From positions 1-35,867 of the IMG/VR virus record IMGVR_UViG_3300025280_000087: a DNA stretch of 35,867 nucleotides. One strand, 5' to 3'. Source of the DNA: a virus. The first letter of the stretch is position 1. Every line of letters starts with the position of its first letter. Positions 1,423-19,929 of the stretch are shown piece after piece. The notes under the pieces are model-generated. The model was not told where the DNA came from. It did not search any database and saw nothing but the letters and a program-made list of their open reading frames with translations. The translations under genes were made by a program, and so were the position numbers.

Positions 1423-1898
1423 GCCGCCCCCGTGGGCGCTGACGTGGTGTCTGATCCTGGCGCGGCCCACTTGAGCCGCATTTGGAGCGGGTGACGGTCG
1501 ATACGCGGGCGACTAGGCTGGGACCAACTCTTGCCGCTCGTCTGCCCAATGATGCGCCACCCGGCAGCGCGCAAGCTCGTCCCCGGCTCGGTGTCGAGCG
1601 TGTAGGTGATGAGGCGGCGATATCCGAGTGCGCGGCTCGCGCGCCAGCAAGCGCCGTATAATTTGGAGCACGCATTGGGCTGGTCATCGAGCACCGCAAC
1701 CCGCGATACCTCTGCCGTCCATGCGTCATCGTTCCGGCGCGCGACGGGCCGACCGACGATTGCCACGCCGACAACTTCCTCGCCCCGTGCGACAGCGACA
1801 GCGAACTTGCCGCCCAGCGGAGCGGGGTGGTGTCGGTGGACTCGATCTACGAACGCCCGCGCATCGGTGATTGAGACGGGCACGATCTCCAGCCTCAC
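1419..1898 (-). CDS. XF1762-family (acetyltransferase-like) protein
   Basis: A 159-aa protein matching the XF1762-type family common in phages and mobile elements. Visible blocks are a VHRHHPAP near residue 20, VVGVAIVGRPVAR, EVSRVAV, NACSKLYGACWRASRALGY, then ITYTLDTEPGTSLRAAGWR and a SWSQPSRPR tail. The fold is GNAT-like but its acceptor is unknown; members often sit beside phage methyltransferase genes, as here. The start is GTG at 1898 overlapping the methyltransferase stop (GTGA). The final residues (APTGAA) are encoded by a repeated sequence that also serves as the ribosome site of the next gene. Confidence 0.8.
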   Translation of the reverse strand: MRLEIVPVSITDARAFVDRVHRHHPAPLGGKFAVAVARGEEVVGVAIVGRPVARRNDDAWTAEVSRVAVLDDQPNACSKLYGACWRASRALGYRRLITYTLDTEPGTSLRAAGWRIIGQTSGKSWSQPSRPRIDRHPLQMRLKWAAPGSDTTSAPTGAA

Positions 1899-2875
1899 GC
1901 CGCCCCCGTGGTCGCTTCAGCGAAGATGTCCGACTGATCGGAGCGCACTCCGTCGACAGCCTCGCGTAAATTGCGCTCCGCCTGCCTGTAGTATGTTTCC
2001 TTGAGTTCGACCCCAACGCCTTTGCGGCCCAATAAGACGGCACCGTAAACCTCTGACCCGACCCCCATAAACGGCGTAAACACGATATCCCCAGGATTGC
2101 TCCACAGTGTCACGCACCTATCAATTACGTCGAGTTGTAGTGGGTGGACGTGTCGCTCGTCTTCGTCCGCACGCGCCTCCATAAACGGCAGTACACGTTG
2201 GAGCCGCACGTCATCCCAGAATGCACTCGCGTACTGTCTCCATATCCAATGCGAGTATCTGTTCTCGATTTGATTGCCCGCCCACTCGCGGTATTGAAGT
2301 AGCTCGCGGGGTATCTCTCGCTCGCCAGCGTACTCCAGTAGTCCGTTAGGGTGCTCGATTGGTGCGGGGTTCTCGCCTTTTTTGCGGAACACCAGCAAAT
2401 AATCTGCCGATGCGTTAGAGCACCGCGACGAATCGTCTACTATGGTCTTGTGCGCGAGGTTCTTAGCCATAGTGCGGTTACGAACCCCTAGCGGCTCCTT
2501 CCACACACTGTAGCGTGCGGTGTAGGCGAATCCTAGCCGAGAATGCAGACGAATAATGTCTCCGGGGAAGTCGATCATAGTGTCGGTGCCAGTGTTGCCG
2601 GATGGTATATCCATGCAATGCACCGCAGTCATCCGCCCCGGCATCGTCAGCCGATAGAGCTCCTGCACAATAAACTCGTAGTGTTCGAAGAATTCTCCGT
2701 ATCCTCGAGCGTTTGAGAGGTCCCGATCAGAGGACGAATAGTGGTATAGCCCTCCAAACGGGGGCGAGTACACCGACAAGTGAACCGATCCGTCTGGCAT
2801 AGAAGGCGTCACGTCCATGCAGTCCCCGCAGTACATCGCGTACTTCTCCGTGATGGTCTGGTGCGCTACAGCCAT
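1895..2875 (-). CDS. N4-cytosine/N6-adenine DNA methyltransferase, beta-class order
   Basis: A 326-aa AdoMet-dependent DNA methyltransferase. The catalytic motif IV reads SPPFGG (about residues 37-42), and the AdoMet-binding motif I reads FTPFMGVGSE near residue 266 with GVGVELKE after it. Having the catalytic motif first and the cofactor motif near the C-terminus is the beta-class order. SPPF is compatible with either N4-cytosine or N6-adenine methylation, and the target sequence cannot be read from the protein. No cognate restriction endonuclease is evident, so it is probably an orphan enzyme protecting phage DNA or marking it for replication. It starts at ATG 2875 and overlaps the helicase gene by 10 bp. 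Confidence 0.9.
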   Translation of the reverse strand: MAVAHQTITEKYAMYCGDCMDVTPSMPDGSVHLSVYSPPFGGLYHYSSSDRDLSNARGYGEFFEHYEFIVQELYRLTMPGRMTAVHCMDIPSGNTGTDTMIDFPGDIIRLHSRLGFAYTARYSVWKEPLGVRNRTMAKNLAHKTIVDDSSRCSNASADYLLVFRKKGENPAPIEHPNGLLEYAGEREIPRELLQYREWAGNQIENRYSHWIWRQYASAFWDDVRLQRVLPFMEARADEDERHVHPLQLDVIDRCVTLWSNPGDIVFTPFMGVGSEVYGAVLLGRKGVGVELKETYYRQAERNLREAVDGVRSDQSDIFAEATTGAA

Positions 2876-4245
2876 GCCGGCATCTCCGTTAAGGTGTTGT
2901 GTATGCTGTCGTGGCTGGCCCGCTCGATTGTTAGCGATTCGCTCATGTGGGCCATAAGTGAGTCGAACATCCTGTCGGCCTTGCTCGCCTTGAGCAGCAA
3001 GTTCTCCAGAACCCTCTTTTCGCCCTCGGTGTAGACCACGTCCACGGTCACGGGACGCTCCTGGCCGAATCGCCAGCAGCGTCTAACGCCTTGGTAGTAC
3101 TGCTCATACGAATGGCTGGGGAAAAAAGTTAGGTGGGCGCACCGCTGTAGGTTGAGCCCCCACGCACCTATCTTGGGCTTGGTGACGAGGACCCGTATTT
3201 CGCCGTTCGCAAACGCCATAAGCCGCTCTTCTTTGGCGTCGTCGTTGTCACTCCCGCTGACTTGTACAGCGTCGTCAATGAGGTCGGTTAATCGGTCCCC
3301 TTCGGCGTTGAAGTGGCACCATACCATCGACTGGTCGGTGCCGCTCACGAGTTCGGCCACCTTCTCGCATCGTTCGGGAATAGTGCGACGGCGCTCTGCT
3401 CTTTGCTCATCCAGCGTCATCGCGGGCAAGTCGAACAACAGGCCTTCCGCGACTCCGTTCGCTTCTACTTTGTGGTACTGCTCCGTCAGTGCGGGTAGGG
3501 TGAACCCAGCATCATCGTATCCGTAGTCGGACGGCTTTCTGATCGCTCTAGACCAGGAGCTTATCCACCTCCAGAAAGCGTCCTCCGCGTGTCCCTTGAA
3601 TCGCCAGTCCACTTTCTTTCCGTATCCGCGCCGGCCAGCCGAGCCGGTATTGCGATCATTACGGAAGAACATGGACAACATATCCATATGACCCATCTCT
3701 CCGAGAGATTCGCTGGAGGTCCCGAGTTCGATGTAATCGTTAGGGGCCGCAGTGGCGGTGCAAAGAAGCCGGTACTTAAGCCCGCGCATAAACTCCGTTA
3801 TCACGGCGCGCCTTGATCCGTTGAAGTTCTTCAGGATGCTCGATTCGTCGCAAACCATCCCCGAGAAGTCAAACGAATTGAATAAATGCAGCCGCTCGTA
3901 GTTGGTGACTACTACTTGCGCGCCGCGCGGCACTTCGCCGTCCGTAACCCTCACGGCCCCTATGTCGAACTTGGCCGCTTCGGCTATCAGTTGATGACTC
4001 ACCGCGAGCGGGGTCGCTATCAATACAGGCCGGTTTGTATGACGTACAACATTCTCGGCCCAGACGAGCTGCATAGGGGTTTTCCCTAACCCGCAGTCCG
4101 CGAAAAGCGCGCGCCGGCCACCGCGCACCGACCACTCCACTAGGTCCCGCTGGAACTCATACAGGAAGCCAGGCATGAAGGTCGGAGCGAACCCCTGCTC
4201 ATCTGCGGCCTGGTGCTTGGATAGCAGGAAAGCGGAGTATGTCAC
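2866..4245 (-). CDS. SNF2-family DNA helicase/translocase
   Basis: A 459-aa superfamily 2 ATPase of the SNF2 type. Walker A is ADCGLGKTPM (about residue 50), motif II is VCDESS rather than DEAD/DEGH, motif III is CTATAAPND, and the second RecA lobe ends in QGVRRCWRFGQ, the QxxxRxxRxGQ arginine-finger motif. An ORF reaches 4308, but I choose GTG 4245 because it overlaps the stop of the preceding gene as GTGA and leaves MTYSAFLL as the N-terminus, a usual beginning for phage members. Such proteins are common in phage replication modules and are thought to remodel protein-DNA complexes or help replication. It lies between two methyltransferase-type genes. Confidence 0.88.
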   Translation of the reverse strand: MTYSAFLLSKHQAADEQGFAPTFMPGFLYEFQRDLVEWSVRGGRRALFADCGLGKTPMQLVWAENVVRHTNRPVLIATPLAVSHQLIAEAAKFDIGAVRVTDGEVPRGAQVVVTNYERLHLFNSFDFSGMVCDESSILKNFNGSRRAVITEFMRGLKYRLLCTATAAPNDYIELGTSSESLGEMGHMDMLSMFFRNDRNTGSAGRRGYGKKVDWRFKGHAEDAFWRWISSWSRAIRKPSDYGYDDAGFTLPALTEQYHKVEANGVAEGLLFDLPAMTLDEQRAERRRTIPERCEKVAELVSGTDQSMVWCHFNAEGDRLTDLIDDAVQVSGSDNDDAKEERLMAFANGEIRVLVTKPKIGAWGLNLQRCAHLTFFPSHSYEQYYQGVRRCWRFGQERPVTVDVVYTEGEKRVLENLLLKASKADRMFDSLMAHMSESLTIERASHDSIHNTLTEMPAWL

Positions 4246-4604
4246 GAGAGCACCCGCCCCGTGGGCGCTGGCGTGGACGACGCCCCCATGATCCGTCGCC
4301 CGATCCACTCAGCGACGTTCACCGTCACGGCGTTCCCCATCATCCGATAGCGCGGCCCGTCCGCGAGCTCCACGCGCTCGCCGTCTTCGTCCACGCCCCA
4401 CGCGGTCCAATCGTCGGGGAACGCCTGTAGGCGCTCGCACTCGCGCGGCGTGAGTCGGCGGGGGATGGGAACGTCGGGCCAGTGCCGGCGCAGAACGCTT
4501 CGGGCTTGCGGATCTTTCTCGCACATCCACGCGCATTCCATCCCGGCTCGCTCGAGGCCCAGGTCGAAGCCGCCGACGCCTGAGAACAGGGAGCCGTATC
4601 TCAT
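4242..4604 (-). CDS. C5-cytosine methyltransferase remnant lacking the catalytic core
   Basis: A 120-aa protein joining the two ends of a Dcm-type C5-cytosine methyltransferase. Motif I is intact (GSLFSGVGGFDLGLERAG) and is followed by the motif II-like CEKDPQARSVLRRHWPDVP. The sequence then jumps to the C-terminal RRLTPRECERLQAFPDDW and the motif X-like RMMGNAVTVNVAEW. The PCQ catalytic loop, the ENV motif, QRR and the target recognition domain are all absent. Relative to the family about 150-250 residues are missing, in frame. It should bind no DNA target and has no nucleophile. The start ATG 4604 follows GCGGGGGTGCGGC. It may be a degenerate gene, or a small protein with a new role. Confidence 0.8.
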   Translation of the reverse strand: MRYGSLFSGVGGFDLGLERAGMECAWMCEKDPQARSVLRRHWPDVPIPRRLTPRECERLQAFPDDWTAWGVDEDGERVELADGPRYRMMGNAVTVNVAEWIGRRIMGASSTPAPTGRVLS

Positions 4605-4768: not shown

Positions 4769-4799
4769 ATAACGAGTTATCAAGCGTTGCCCTCGTTAT
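4769..4799. repeat. inverted repeat across the integrase stop codon
   Basis: ATAACGAG (4769-4776) and CTCGTTAT (4792-4799) are exact inverted copies 15 bases apart and enclose the integrase stop. The pair could be a weak terminator or an integrase/excisionase binding site next to the tRNA half. There is no T-run, so a terminator is the weaker choice. Confidence 0.4.
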
Positions 4800-5910
4800 C
4801 GGAAGTCGATTGACCCGCTTTTGACACGGTTCCTGCATCGGCCAACGCTCGGGCAACCAGCTTCTTAGGGTGAATGTCGTCTTGCACGTAGATGCTATCA
4901 AGGGTGTCCGCGCGGGTTCCGCTTTGCTTGTCCCTGCCGACCATGCCGGCGCTTGCGGTCGCATAGGCACGCTTCAGTCCGTGCCACGCCCTGCCCTCAA
5001 CGTGTGGGATGCCGGCAGCTTTCTCCGCGGCGGGCAACCAGACCTTGATGCAGACGTGTTCGGTGATTCCAGCCAGCAGCTCGGGCATGATGTCCACCGT
5101 GAGGTCATGCGCTAGCCCGACCACAACCACCTGGCCGGTCTTCCTGGCCTTGTCTGTCTCGCCCGGGAACGTGAGCACCGTATGATCGTCGTGGACACGC
5201 ACCGCGGCGCCTGTGAGCGTCCGTATCGCTGTCAGCCTACGTCCACTCTGCCACGCGACATGTCCCAGCCAGCCGGCCCGCGGGTCGACCGTCTCGAGCG
5301 CGGGCAACAGCCTGCGCACCTCGTCCAAGCTGTACGCCTTCGACTTGCTCCTGGCTTTCGGGAGGTCTACCGCGTCCATGTTGTGGCGTGGGTCGATCCA
5401 CTTCAGCTTCCGTTCAGCGTAGCGGTACGCCTGCTTCATGTAGCGCAGATATTTGCGCGTCGTCTCTGCTGTCACGTCCAGAGCCCGGGCGTGGTGCTCG
5501 ATCTCTGCCGGCGGGATGTCGGTAAGCACCGTGTCCTCACCTAGCCGCTCGAGCCAGAAGTCACGGAACCGACGCTGGCCCTTCACCTGCTTCGGGCTCC
5601 AGTCGCCTTCCTTCGCCATATGGAAAGCGCGGAAGAGCTCTCCCACCGTGCGCTCGGTCGTGAAGCCGAACACGACTTTCATCGCCGCGCGGTTGTGGTT
5701 ATGCTCGAGGTCGCGGGACATCCGGTGAGCGATGCGCACTGCTAGCCGGCGCTCGGTGACGGGGTGGCCGGTGACCTTCTTGAGCGACTTCTGGACGCGC
5801 TCGCCCTGCCAGTACCACTCGACGTAGAGCGAGGCACCAACGGAGCGTTCGTAGACTCGGACGCGGGAAATGCTTTTTTGCCCGCAGATGTAGGACCAGA
5901 GCGGAGCCAT
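4780..5910 (-). CDS. int: tyrosine recombinase (phage integrase)
   Basis: A 376-aa site-specific recombinase that would integrate the phage into the host chromosome. The N-terminal part (VRVYERS, LYVEWYWQG) resembles an arm-binding domain. A SAM-like core-binding domain covers about residues 85-170, and the catalytic domain follows. The first active-site arginine is in WQSGRRLTAIR, a lysine is in the TDKARKTG turn, the HxxR motif is WHGLKR, and the nucleophile is probably the tyrosine of LDSIY near the C-terminus. The ATG at 5910 is preferred because AGGAAAAGCC precedes it. The gene overlaps the small ORF at 5742-6065. The candidate attP lies directly downstream. Confidence 0.92.
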   Translation of the reverse strand: MAPLWSYICGQKSISRVRVYERSVGASLYVEWYWQGERVQKSLKKVTGHPVTERRLAVRIAHRMSRDLEHNHNRAAMKVVFGFTTERTVGELFRAFHMAKEGDWSPKQVKGQRRFRDFWLERLGEDTVLTDIPPAEIEHHARALDVTAETTRKYLRYMKQAYRYAERKLKWIDPRHNMDAVDLPKARSKSKAYSLDEVRRLLPALETVDPRAGWLGHVAWQSGRRLTAIRTLTGAAVRVHDDHTVLTFPGETDKARKTGQVVVVGLAHDLTVDIMPELLAGITEHVCIKVWLPAAEKAAGIPHVEGRAWHGLKRAYATASAGMVGRDKQSGTRADTLDSIYVQDDIHPKKLVARALADAGTVSKAGQSTSDNEGNA

Positions 5911-6753: not shown

Positions 6754-6875
6754 AGCCCAGCCCTCCGAGCGCGGTCGACTTCCTCGGCTCTCGCGTCGGC
6801 ATGGGCGACAGCACAAACCAAGAACACCACACCACCGCTGACGAGCAGAGCGAGCAGAGCGAGCAGAAGCCTCAT
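6750..6875 (-). CDS. 41-aa single-pass membrane protein
   Basis: A short gene. The ATG at 6875 overlaps the preceding TGA (ATGA) and its own TGA overlaps the next GTG (GTGA), so it sits exactly between two coupled genes. The product begins MRLLLALLALLV, continues through SGGVVFLVCAVAHA as one membrane segment or signal anchor, and ends in a charged tail (ARAEEVDRARRAG). It could be a small membrane regulator or a spacer for coupling; nothing more specific is visible. Confidence 0.65.
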   Translation of the reverse strand: MRLLLALLALLVSGGVVFLVCAVAHADARAEEVDRARRAGL

Positions 6876-7467: not shown

Positions 7468-7709
7468 GCGGCTATCCGGTAGCGCGCGTGCGTCCCACCC
7501 TCATGCGTTTCGTCTTCGGTCGTGATGCTCCAGCCGGCGTCCCGTAGGTCATAGATGCGTGCGGCAAGCCGGCGGATGCCCAACTTCGTGTACGCTTCGA
7601 GGTCGCTGATCGAGCCGTACGCTTCGAGGTAGCGGATGACGCGCCCGCACTGACTGCCGGCCTTCGGTGCTGACGGTGCGCTGAATAGGTCAGCTTGCGC
7701 AGGGATCAT
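7464..7709 (-). CDS. winged helix-turn-helix protein
   Basis: An 81-aa protein with the pattern SQCGRVIRYLEAYGSISDLEAYTKLGIRRLAARIYDLRDAGW, here split for description: a helix ending in YLE, the SISDLEAYTKL turn, a recognition helix with RRLAARI, and the DLRDAGWSI wing. Similar small winged-helix proteins are widespread in phage early regions and probably bind DNA. A phage-replication or regulatory role is likely. ATGA overlaps join it to the genes on both sides. Confidence 0.75.
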   Translation of the reverse strand: MIPAQADLFSAPSAPKAGSQCGRVIRYLEAYGSISDLEAYTKLGIRRLAARIYDLRDAGWSITTEDETHEGGTHARYRIAA

Positions 7710-8149
7710 GTCACCGCCTCCATCACTGCGATGACGGGCGCCAGCTCATTAAAATCCTTGTACTTCTTGATGAATGCATCCATCTCCCTCTTGGCCATCG
7801 CCAGCAGCCTGTCCATCTTCTCAGGCACCGCGACCACGGACACGACATGTTCGTACTCGGACCCGTCGCCCAGATTCACGAAGGCGCGCACCGTGCTGGG
7901 CTCGCTGTGATGGTTGCCCACGAACGTGACAGACACCGAGCGGATCAGTTCGCGGGCTTGCTCCAGCCTGTACATGCGCGCCGCCGCGGTGTTGTCCCAC
8001 TCGAACCAGCCGTGTAGTGGGCTGGTCTTCCTGCGCGCCTCCCTGACCACGTTGCCAGGCGTGAGTCTGTCGAGGCGGGCCAGAACTGGCGCGATATCGT
8101 CAATCTCTAGCCGCCTCGTGCGCGCTCCATCCCTCCACTTGTACTCCAT
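7706..8149 (-). CDS. conserved phage protein of unknown function
   Basis: A 147-aa protein with a conserved-looking core: RLTPGNVVREARRKTSPLHGWFEWDNTAAA can be described as an N-terminal helix, the HGWFEWD block and a YRLEQARELIRSV helix. It has a beta-rich middle and a C-terminal helix (DRLLAMAKREMDAFIKKY). Related phage proteins with an HxWFEWD...A...YR...QAR motif are common in early regions but uncharacterised. I choose ATG 8149 because AAGGAGTGGACG precedes it. The longer frame upstream runs into the NNGCC array and is therefore not coding in my view. The array sits between this strong ribosome site and the preceding gene. Confidence 0.8.
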   Translation of the reverse strand: MEYKWRDGARTRRLEIDDIAPVLARLDRLTPGNVVREARRKTSPLHGWFEWDNTAAARMYRLEQARELIRSVSVTFVGNHHSEPSTVRAFVNLGDGSEYEHVVSVVAVPEKMDRLLAMAKREMDAFIKKYKDFNELAPVIAVMEAVT

Positions 8150-8177
8150 CCGTCCACTCCTTTTCAAAGATCCTCCC

Positions 8178-8447
8178 ATGCCTTGCCCCGCCTCGCCATG
8201 CCGCGCCATGCCGAGCCTCGCCTCGCCTGCCTCGCCACGCCCTGCCGGGCCCTGCCGGGCCGCGCCGCGCCATGCCTCGCCCAGCCTCGCCATGCCATGC
8301 CTGCCTTGCCTTGCCCAGCCCTGCCTCGCCCCGCCCCGCCTCGCCGCGCCACGCCACGCCTGCCTTGCCGCGCCTGCCTTGCCAAGCCCAGCCCTGCCTC
8401 GCCGGGCCCCGCCTCGCCATGCCCCGCCGGCCAAGCCCAACCCAGCC
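8178..8447. repeat. 55-unit NNGCC pentanucleotide array
   Basis: This 270-bp stretch is made entirely of units ending in GCC on the plus strand: 50 units of five bases (NNGCC) and five shortened ones (TGCC four times, GGCC once), with one CAACC exception. The first two bases vary freely; TC (10) and AT (7) are the most common and TA is absent. On the minus strand, the transcribed sense, it reads GGCNN repeated, giving evenly spaced GG pairs suited to two-tier G-quadruplexes. A period of five is half a helical turn. It lies between a gene stop (8460) and a strong ribosome site (8155-8160). No stop codon can arise without TA, so long false ORFs cross it in every frame. Confidence 0.95.
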
Positions 8448-8459
8448 ATGAGCAGGAGG

Positions 8460-9104
8460 CTACCTCACTGTGAAGCGGCCCCAAGACCCATTTTTTTCGG
8501 GTCGGTACTCGCCAATACCGCAAGCGAATCCGCCCACGTTGAACAGGTTGACCATCTGTTCGACGCTCATCGCAGCCGTATTGATTTCCACGGTCAACAC
8601 TGTTTCCCACTCTTCCCACATCGGTCGATAGCGGAGGTCCGCTGTCCCCATCCCGACACGCACCATGTCTTCCCGCATCACCGGAGCGGGTCCGATGATT
8701 TCCGCCAGCTCACCGCGGATGTGGAACGCCCCACGGGTGCCCACCTTCGTGATGCCGTCAACGAACCCAGCACCGGCAACAGCCGCAGCCTTGAATGCCA
8801 CAGTCGGAAACCCGAACGAGGCATCCTGCACAGCCTCGAGCGCCTCGGTTTCCGCCTCGTCCATGTCACCGGACAGCACCGGCTTCTCTGTGAGCCAATA
8901 CGCTGCGTCGATGAAGTCCTGCGCTGGCACCTTCGCCTCTTTGGCCTGCTTCGCTTTCTTGGTCTGCTTGTCTCGCATCTGCTTCTTTGCCTTCTCGGAC
9001 CATGCGTGCGTCACCAGTGGGCTCGTGCCCACTAGGTGCATCTCCACCGTCTCGACCTTGATTCGCGGCACTTCGACCTGTGCCGCCCTCTTCTTGGGTG
9101 CCAT
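8460..9104 (-). CDS. conserved phage protein of the replication/recombination module
   Basis: A 214-aa protein. It starts at ATG 9104 after AGGAGGCGAAACAA, an excellent ribosome site, and begins APKKRAAQ. Visible blocks are HLVGTSPLVTHAWSEKA, a Lys/Ala-rich helix (KQTKKAKQAKEAK), FGFPTVAFKAAAV, GTRGAFHIRGELAEI, MREDMVRVGMGTADLRYRP and a C-terminal VNLFNVGGFACGIGEYRPEK. This layout is a recurring phage family beside ssDNA-binding, HNH and recombination genes, but I know no assigned function. A DNA-binding or recombination role is inferred from context only. The NNGCC array begins 13 bp after its stop. Confidence 0.8.
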   Translation of the reverse strand: MAPKKRAAQVEVPRIKVETVEMHLVGTSPLVTHAWSEKAKKQMRDKQTKKAKQAKEAKVPAQDFIDAAYWLTEKPVLSGDMDEAETEALEAVQDASFGFPTVAFKAAAVAGAGFVDGITKVGTRGAFHIRGELAEIIGPAPVMREDMVRVGMGTADLRYRPMWEEWETVLTVEINTAAMSVEQMVNLFNVGGFACGIGEYRPEKNGSWGRFTVR

Positions 9105-11372: not shown

Positions 11373-11759
11373 ATGGGTACATTCGGCCAGCGGCTTGTGC
11401 TAGCGCGGAAGGCGGCGGGGCTGGGCCAAGCAGACTTGATGGATGCCGTCGCTGTGAAGTCGCGGTCACAGGTCAGCCATTGGGAGAACGACAAGGCTGT
11501 GCCGAACGGCAAGTACCTTTTTCTGCTACCAGGAATTCTTGGATGCAGTGGTCACTGGCTCCTGACGGGCGAGGGACCGATGACCGGACCATCGAATGAG
11601 GACGCGCTACGGCTCACCGTCATCCGCAGAATCGCCGCTGGCGAGGTCAGCGACTACGAGCTGGGGATACTGGCTAGCCCTGTGCCACACGAAGCTGCCG
11701 TGCAGATCGCGGAAACCGCGCTACGAATTGCGCAAGATTCTGGTTTGTTCACTCGTTGA
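11373..11759 (+). CDS. XRE-family repressor, likely lysogeny regulator
   Basis: About 128 aa with an N-terminal Cro/CI-type helix-turn-helix: FGQRLVLARKAAGLGQADL, AVAVKSRSQVSHWENDKAVPNG, then LLPGILGCSGHWLLTGEG. Behind it is a helical tail (LTVIRRIAAGEV...AVQIAETALRIAQDSG) rather than a peptidase domain, so it is not a self-cleaving CI. It is one of only two plus-strand genes, opposite the early operon, as expected of a lysogeny repressor. The ORF is open from 11292; I take ATG 11373 (MGTFGQRL) because the operator-like repeat lies upstream, but 11361 is possible. Confidence 0.78.
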   Translation: MGTFGQRLVLARKAAGLGQADLMDAVAVKSRSQVSHWENDKAVPNGKYLFLLPGILGCSGHWLLTGEGPMTGPSNEDALRLTVIRRIAAGEVSDYELGILASPVPHEAAVQIAETALRIAQDSGLFTR

Positions 11760-19308: not shown

Positions 19309-19929
19309 TTACCGCTTCGCCAACTCCAACAGCCGGCGGGCCGCTTCCAGTGTGGTCCGCTCGTCCTCACGCTTATCCGTTACTTCCTCGACGGGCTGGC
19401 GTTCGGTCTTCGCAGCTTCCAGCGAGCGCACCGCAACGTCTGTGTTAGGGTTCGCCGGATATGTCACAGGGCTGACATCGTACAGCCGCTTGACCTTTTG
19501 AATCGTGCGCAGTTCGCGGCCTGTCTCTTCGTTGGTCGTTTCCCATGTATCCGTTTCGACAGTGAAGCCGAAACTCATCTGATCGACATCACCGCGGTCA
19601 ATCGCTTCGCGGAGCGCAGCAGCCGAGTCGGGCAAGTCGATTTCACTGAGCAGGCCACGCTGGTCGACCGACAGCCTGAGAGTGCCCGACTTTGTGCGAC
19701 CTAGCACGTGGTTGCTGTCGTGGTTCCACAGCGCGCGCACGTCGTCACTCAGCACGTCATCGAACGCGCCGGCTGCAATGCGCTCATCGAACATGCCCAG
19801 GTCGTAGACATCACCGAACGTCGCGGCGTGTCCGCGCAGGGTCATGCCGGCGTCGGTCGTGTCGGCCCTGAACTCCGCTATAGGCCGATACCGGAACTCG
19901 ACGCCCTCGGGGATCTTGGTGTTGCTCAT
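19309..19929 (-). CDS. HK97-type prohead maturation protease, displaced
   Basis: A 206-aa serine protease of the HK97 prohead family, which degrades the scaffold and delta domain during head maturation. It has LRGHAATFGDV, VRALWNHDSNHVLGRTKSGTLRL (histidine of the catalytic site in NHD), VDQMSFGFTV (nucleophile serine) and LYDVSPVTYPA near the end. Length suits the family. AGAGGAACGAAACG precedes ATG 19929. It normally sits between portal and capsid; here it is in the tail region, between a small unknown gene and the tail tip gene, about 8 kb downstream of the capsid gene in transcription order. Confidence 0.88.
   Translation of the reverse strand: MSNTKIPEGVEFRYRPIAEFRADTTDAGMTLRGHAATFGDVYDLGMFDERIAAGAFDDVLSDDVRALWNHDSNHVLGRTKSGTLRLSVDQRGLLSEIDLPDSAAALREAIDRGDVDQMSFGFTVETDTWETTNEETGRELRTIQKVKRLYDVSPVTYPANPNTDVAVRSLEAAKTERQPVEEVTDKREDERTTLEAARRLLELAKR

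Follow-up and report, generated by a model that had tools for sequence, protein, structure and literature searches.

The locus considered here raises the question of what a long and highly regular array of five-base units represents in the non-coding gap between two genes of a virus. The window analysed is the whole 35,867 nt stretch of IMG/VR record IMGVR_UViG_3300025280_000087. Positions 8178–8447 parse without remainder into 55 units, 50 of the five-base form NNGCC and five of four bases, with a single unit (CAACC) that breaks the GCC, which confirms the 270 bp array of the initial annotation. The four-base units are TGCC (four) and GGCC (one) on the plus strand, reading GGCA (four) and GGCC (one) on the minus strand. 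Independently of the unit parsing, TRF reports a period-5 array at 8180–8418 with just 72% matches. Chained at a spacing of 4 or 5 bases, GCC extends over at most 53 units, compared to 6 or fewer in 200 Markov shuffles of the window. All of the nearby genes are on the minus strand, therefore the array transcript reads GGCNN and the minus strand is the relevant one. The gap containing the array (8150–8459) is located between the gene ending at 8460 and the gene starting at 8149. The array forms part of the 5' leader of the latter gene (7706–8149) and continues right up to its ribosome site. Shorter tandem repeats are present elsewhere in the window, at 1121–1168 (period 11/22) and 6842–6867 (period 9).

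Being a low-complexity, C-rich sequence in a metagenome contig, the array could be an assembly artefact or a simple slippage repeat. Just 8 of 49 neighbouring dinucleotides are identical, and this lack of autocorrelation means that the array is not the result of ordinary slippage, as had been proposed from the sequence. An identical array is present in a second contig (L129), although this contig may share its sample with the window, and the same kind of array is found in the complete genomes of the isolated phages Saal, Quico, and ODay. The probability that the array is an artefact or a product of slippage is vanishingly small.

The gene on the 5' side of the array (8460–9104, minus strand) encodes a 214 aa protein with a predicted RAMP fold. 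Its family profile matches chain D of PDB 36pp, the 'SUSP1 Vipr protein', with an E-value of 4.7e-37 (Csm5 scores far lower), and a single-sequence phmmer comparison with the Vipr of PDB 36pp gives E=0.0011. All members of this vipr family (78/78) are assigned to phrog_4652. The AlphaFold model (pLDDT 94) has the fold of the CRISPR RAMPs (Csm3/Cas7). The matches listed by Foldseek for this model belong to the CRISPR RAMPs, among them Csm3, Cmr6, and type VII Cas7, and its alignment to Csm3 has a Z of about 11 over 150 residues (VIA-align). Pfam, NCBIfam, and PADLOC gave no usable name for the Vipr family, and no cas family was above the cut-off for it in Pfam and NCBIfam or among the window proteins scanned. 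The product of 8460–9104 is expected to hold the GGC triplets. On the 3' side of the array, the 147 aa phrog_15946 gene at 7706–8149 (minus strand), with the ribosome site AAAAGGAG just upstream, is a candidate accessory (vap) gene. Its protein has a conserved core, FEWDD..AA..YR, and an AlphaFold model of pLDDT 89, for which the fold search found no significant match.

An integrase (4780–5910) and an HTH protein (11373–11759) are encoded in the window, and the array sits in the early/recombination region of a temperate phage. The early setting in the initial annotation is thus retained, but not its placement next to replication genes: no recognised replication gene is directly beside the array, and a helicase-domain gene is about 4 kb away. 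At 1895–4308, in the early region, a DNA methylase (N6_N4_Mtase) adjoins a helicase-domain protein.

The Vipr match connects the locus to the Viral Interference Programmable Repeat (VIPR) systems. In the preprint posted in April 2026, these CRISPR-like systems are composed of vrRNAs in which GGY and NN alternate, along with Vipr and an accessory protein (PMC13142463, bioRxiv 2026.04.26.720920). The NN pairs are described there as reading double-stranded DNA with one skipped base, with the systems being directed mainly against competing phages (PMC13142463). The claim that no described phage element has this pattern is therefore out of date, while the RNA element listed among the initial options is supported in the form of a VIPR guide array. 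A literature search with the raw repeat pattern returned nothing; the link to VIPR came via the protein only. Like the published systems, the window has a phage-encoded Vipr homologue of RAMP fold, intergenic GGY/NN repeats adjoining vipr in the sense orientation with hypervariable NN, and a small candidate accessory gene nearby. Since the window fits in protein, repeat pattern, orientation, and setting, the 55 GGCNN/GGCN units at 8178–8447 (minus strand) can be assigned with high confidence as the guide RNA (vrRNA) array of a phage-encoded VIPR system. The window is a new example of an already known system, with an array that is unusually long and regularly punctuated. Expression of vrRNAs, their binding by Vipr, the one-base skip, and repression are reported for other VIPRs (PMC13142463), and by analogy the array at 8178–8447 would be expressed and would act in a similar manner.

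Like elements are present beside the same protein family in most of the loci fetched. A pattern scan of IMG/VR yielded at least 120 stretches with such arrays, and the survey set is made up of 132 fetched loci, in which 236 arrays and 6211 units were counted. Where a locus has several arrays, all are on one strand, with one palindromic exception. Flanking genes, called with a purpose-made simple gene caller, are on the GGC strand in 376 of 415 cases and on the opposite strand in 39 of 415. Most arrays lie between called genes. Those covered by a called gene (47 out of 236) are expected, since the pattern rarely makes stops. The phrog_4652 family flanks arrays in 94 of the 132 loci and phrog_15946 in 43, making the two neighbours of the window array (8460–9104 and 7706–8149) members of the commonest and second commonest flanking families. 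Substituted triplets are far more often GGT (252) than GGA (72) or GGG (9), which indicates GGY and matches the VIPR preprint (PMC13142463).

This orientation bears on the suggestion, made from the sequence, that the array is a replication origin, partition, or packaging site composed of protein-binding sites. A period of five is half a helical turn, the location is non-coding, and at one other locus (L033, 3505–4194) a ParB-like protein (phrog_1033) is linked to an array. Nevertheless, the orientation of the arrays is locked to transcription, several arrays can be present in one genome between small genes, and there is a tight link to one RAMP gene. It is highly improbable that the array is a DNA element of this type. 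At another locus (L005, 5175–5645) the array-linked gene encodes a single-strand DNA-binding protein (phrog_6015). In L053, a single contig carries a long array of about 229 GGCNN units that is interrupted many times.

In Mycobacterium phage Gorge (L216, 967–2184, gp054) vipr and phrog_15946 are annotated as one fused ORF, yet these are separate genes in Saal and Mattes. The vipr homologue of Mycobacterium phage Saal (L140, 1668–1680, gp51) has an annotated start that falls inside the end of the array, and the annotated Quico gene is shorter, at 600 bp, therefore this Saal start is probably wrong. The vipr/phrog_15946 pair is also present in Gordonia phage UmaThurman (L139), where the gap directly upstream of vipr contains no array; elsewhere in this locus there is a GGC chain of degenerate form.

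A search of related phages for NNGCC arrays found, rather than unrelated sequence, an array at the same site in mycobacteriophages Saal and Quico, with its edges conserved. In the aligned units of these two phages, G1 is identical in 38/38, G2 in 37/38, and C3 in 38/38, whereas the two N positions are identical in just 17/37 and 14/38. There is selection on GGC but not on NN, in agreement with the original observation that the fixed part is kept while the dinucleotide varies. The same comparison bears on the proposed G-quadruplex of the minus strand, where GG is present every 4–5 bases. A G2 quadruplex needs no C, yet conservation of the C in GGC is on a par with that of the two Gs. Folding of the RNA is also no better than that of shuffles (z −0.84), in a program that by default scores no quadruplexes. 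A quadruplex element is extremely unlikely.

Although not conserved, the NN pairs carry a signal. Across 122 loci, the register that best fits the NN statistics is codon positions 1–2, in the sense direction for 68 and antisense for 30, with all other coding registers together accounting for 19. The NN of the window array alone are likewise best fitted by codon positions 1–2. This is expected if guides target coding DNA and skip the wobble base, and it agrees with the wobble-base skip of the VIPR preprint (PMC13142463).

It might be argued that the array itself is coding, as an N-terminal extension of the downstream protein, since the ORF at 7706–8449 is open and continuous through the array. 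A GGCNN repeat, though, can generate a stop only as TAG and in one phase. Stop-free frames run through 76 of 99 arrays, compared to 78.0 when the NN are shuffled, which indicates that the arrays are not under selection for coding and bears out their original description as non-coding. A separate ribosome site, AAAAGGAG, and an ATG at 8149 serve the downstream gene, and relatives have the core protein without an array in front. A tblastn search with the peptide encoded by the array found no phage. A coding role is scarcely credible. Overall, the origin, G-quadruplex, coding, and slippage readings fit the locus less well than VIPR.

An RNA that binds protein could also act without targeting. The trp RNA-binding attenuation protein (TRAP) binds tandem NAG-NN repeats, having a fixed triplet and two free bases, and an RNA leader of this type would regulate translation of the downstream gene. 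The geometry of triplet plus two bases is the same in the window, and the array is in the 5' leader of 7706–8149. However, the triplet and the protein are different, the neighbouring protein being a RAMP and not TRAP, and other arrays precede vipr or follow the accessory gene. The free bases carry no information in TRAP sites, whereas the NN of the arrays are not neutral and fit codon positions 1–2. A TRAP-like leader is very unlikely. Neither the window nor 19 array loci gave an Rfam match, and no hammerhead ribozymes were found at the gathering threshold.

As a VIPR guide array, the locus may function as follows. The array would be co-transcribed with vipr and the accessory gene on the minus strand. 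Subunits of Vipr, as small one-domain relatives of Cas7/Csm3, would line up along the RNA with one GGC each, and the exposed NN pairs would read double-stranded DNA while skipping one base after each pair (NNxNNx...). A guide of 10–14 units would specify 20–28 bases of a competing phage, which would be repressed on binding. GGCA units would separate the successive guides.

The four-base units divide the window array into segments of 10, 2, 11, 14, and 10 units. Segment S1 (8379–8428, minus strand as for all that follow) is bounded by the GGCC unit at 8432 on one side and by the GGCA at 8378 on the other, and has the 10 pairs GG AT GA GG CC GA AG TG TT AA. GGCA punctuation units at 8375–8378 and 8361–8364 precede segment S3 (8306–8360), with the 11 pairs GT GT GC GA GG GG GA AG TG AA AA. 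A further GGCA (8302–8305) is followed by segment S4 (8232–8301), with the 14 pairs AT AT GA TG GA AT GC GC CC AG CC AG GT GA. The last GGCA (8228–8231) is followed by segment S5 (8178–8227), with the 10 pairs GA GA TC AT GC AT GA GG AA AT.

Such punctuation is general. Across the 132 loci, 245 of 289 four-base units are GGCA. Internal segments between four-base units are 8–15 units long in 57.6% of 271 cases, compared to 22.7% with random placement, which never exceeded 29.9% in 2000 trials. Units beside GGCA are enriched for a purine in the first place. Other marks occur at similar intervals in some lineages, as in the 12-base spacers of L019 and L103. A lineage-specific boundary mark is present in L114 (3383–3821), where GGCT replaces GGCA every 8–9 units. 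The spacing suggests that one guide probably ends and the next begins at a GGCA unit. Phage ByChance is without an internal array block that is present in Saal, which is consistent with the loss of one GGCA-delimited module. It is possible, as a tentative proposal, that this is a tail-less VIPR guide format: one long transcript with a four-base unit (consensus RN-GGCA-GGC-RN, with GGCA in most lineages) every 8–15 repeats. The guide modules so delimited would be exchangeable, with related phages gaining, losing, and swapping them as whole pieces. This would be the viral equivalent of spacer turnover, operating without Cas1.

The preprint describes published vrRNAs as separate RNAs of about 100 nt with 9–16 repeats each, and a structured 3' tail is reported for SUSP1 and the type II clade, with array architecture varying between VIPR types (PMC13142463). 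The window array differs in having 55 contiguous units, GGCA-punctuated into delimited segments of 10, 11, 14, and 10, lengths that come close to the 9–16 repeats of one vrRNA. No SUSP1-type 3' tail is visible after the window array, while tails are present in the SUSP1-like phage Alf5. The accessory gene also differs, being phrog_15946 in the window and phrog_5926 at the Felixounavirus Alf5 locus. The window system is therefore probably not type II, although this is no argument against VIPR overall. Staggered arrays with overlapping vrRNAs are mentioned in the preprint (PMC13142463), and these may be the punctuated layout seen in the window.

Class 1 CRISPR RAMPs such as Csm3 and Cas7 share the predicted fold (Z about 11 to Csm3) and, by analogy, would share a guide RNA that is lined by protein subunits and whose pairing is interrupted at regular intervals. 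The period is 6 nt in Class 1 CRISPR, whereas it is 5 nt in the window, with a fixed triplet in every unit. Class 1 CRISPR also has a repeat-spacer array and cas genes; the window array is without the repeat-spacer form, and no cas gene is among the genes scanned.

The likely targets of the window array are rival phages. Searches of IMG/VR with one-base-skip seeds gave 1 match for S1, 18 for S3, 18 for S4, and 11 for S5, against 13 for a shuffled control; none of these extend beyond the seed and the counts are about those expected by chance. Against bacterial genomes, a 10-unit S4 seed had no match and a 9-unit S5 seed had 21 scattered matches. No full-length target was found in the viral or bacterial genome scans. 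A small cohort search gave a modest excess of one-base-skip matches, 45 compared to 30 in the control. Of the 18 S3 matches, 12 coincide in frame with a single conserved motif, VA[DE]GG[DE][SR]W, which by eye we take to be that of the S78 prohead protease. The window's own Peptidase_S78 prohead protease (19309–19929) has SFGFTVETDTW here, deviating from the matching motif. The units on either side have no match, and the concentration disappears when the seed is moved by one unit, therefore the prohead protease of other phages is a suggestive lead only as the S3 target.

It has been proposed that VIPR is the viral system from which CRISPR descends, and that it represents programmable DNA binding in a minimal form. 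The window contains a distant member of these systems that is without a tail and differs in its accessory gene. The survey shows that environmental phages carry such arrays in abundance, and that they are also present in long-sequenced mycobacteriophages and Gordonia phages, in which the genes at these sites are annotated just as 'hypothetical protein'. If the proposed guide format is correct, its punctuation and module turnover would make it testable how guides are delimited, and how they are acquired without adaptation machinery.
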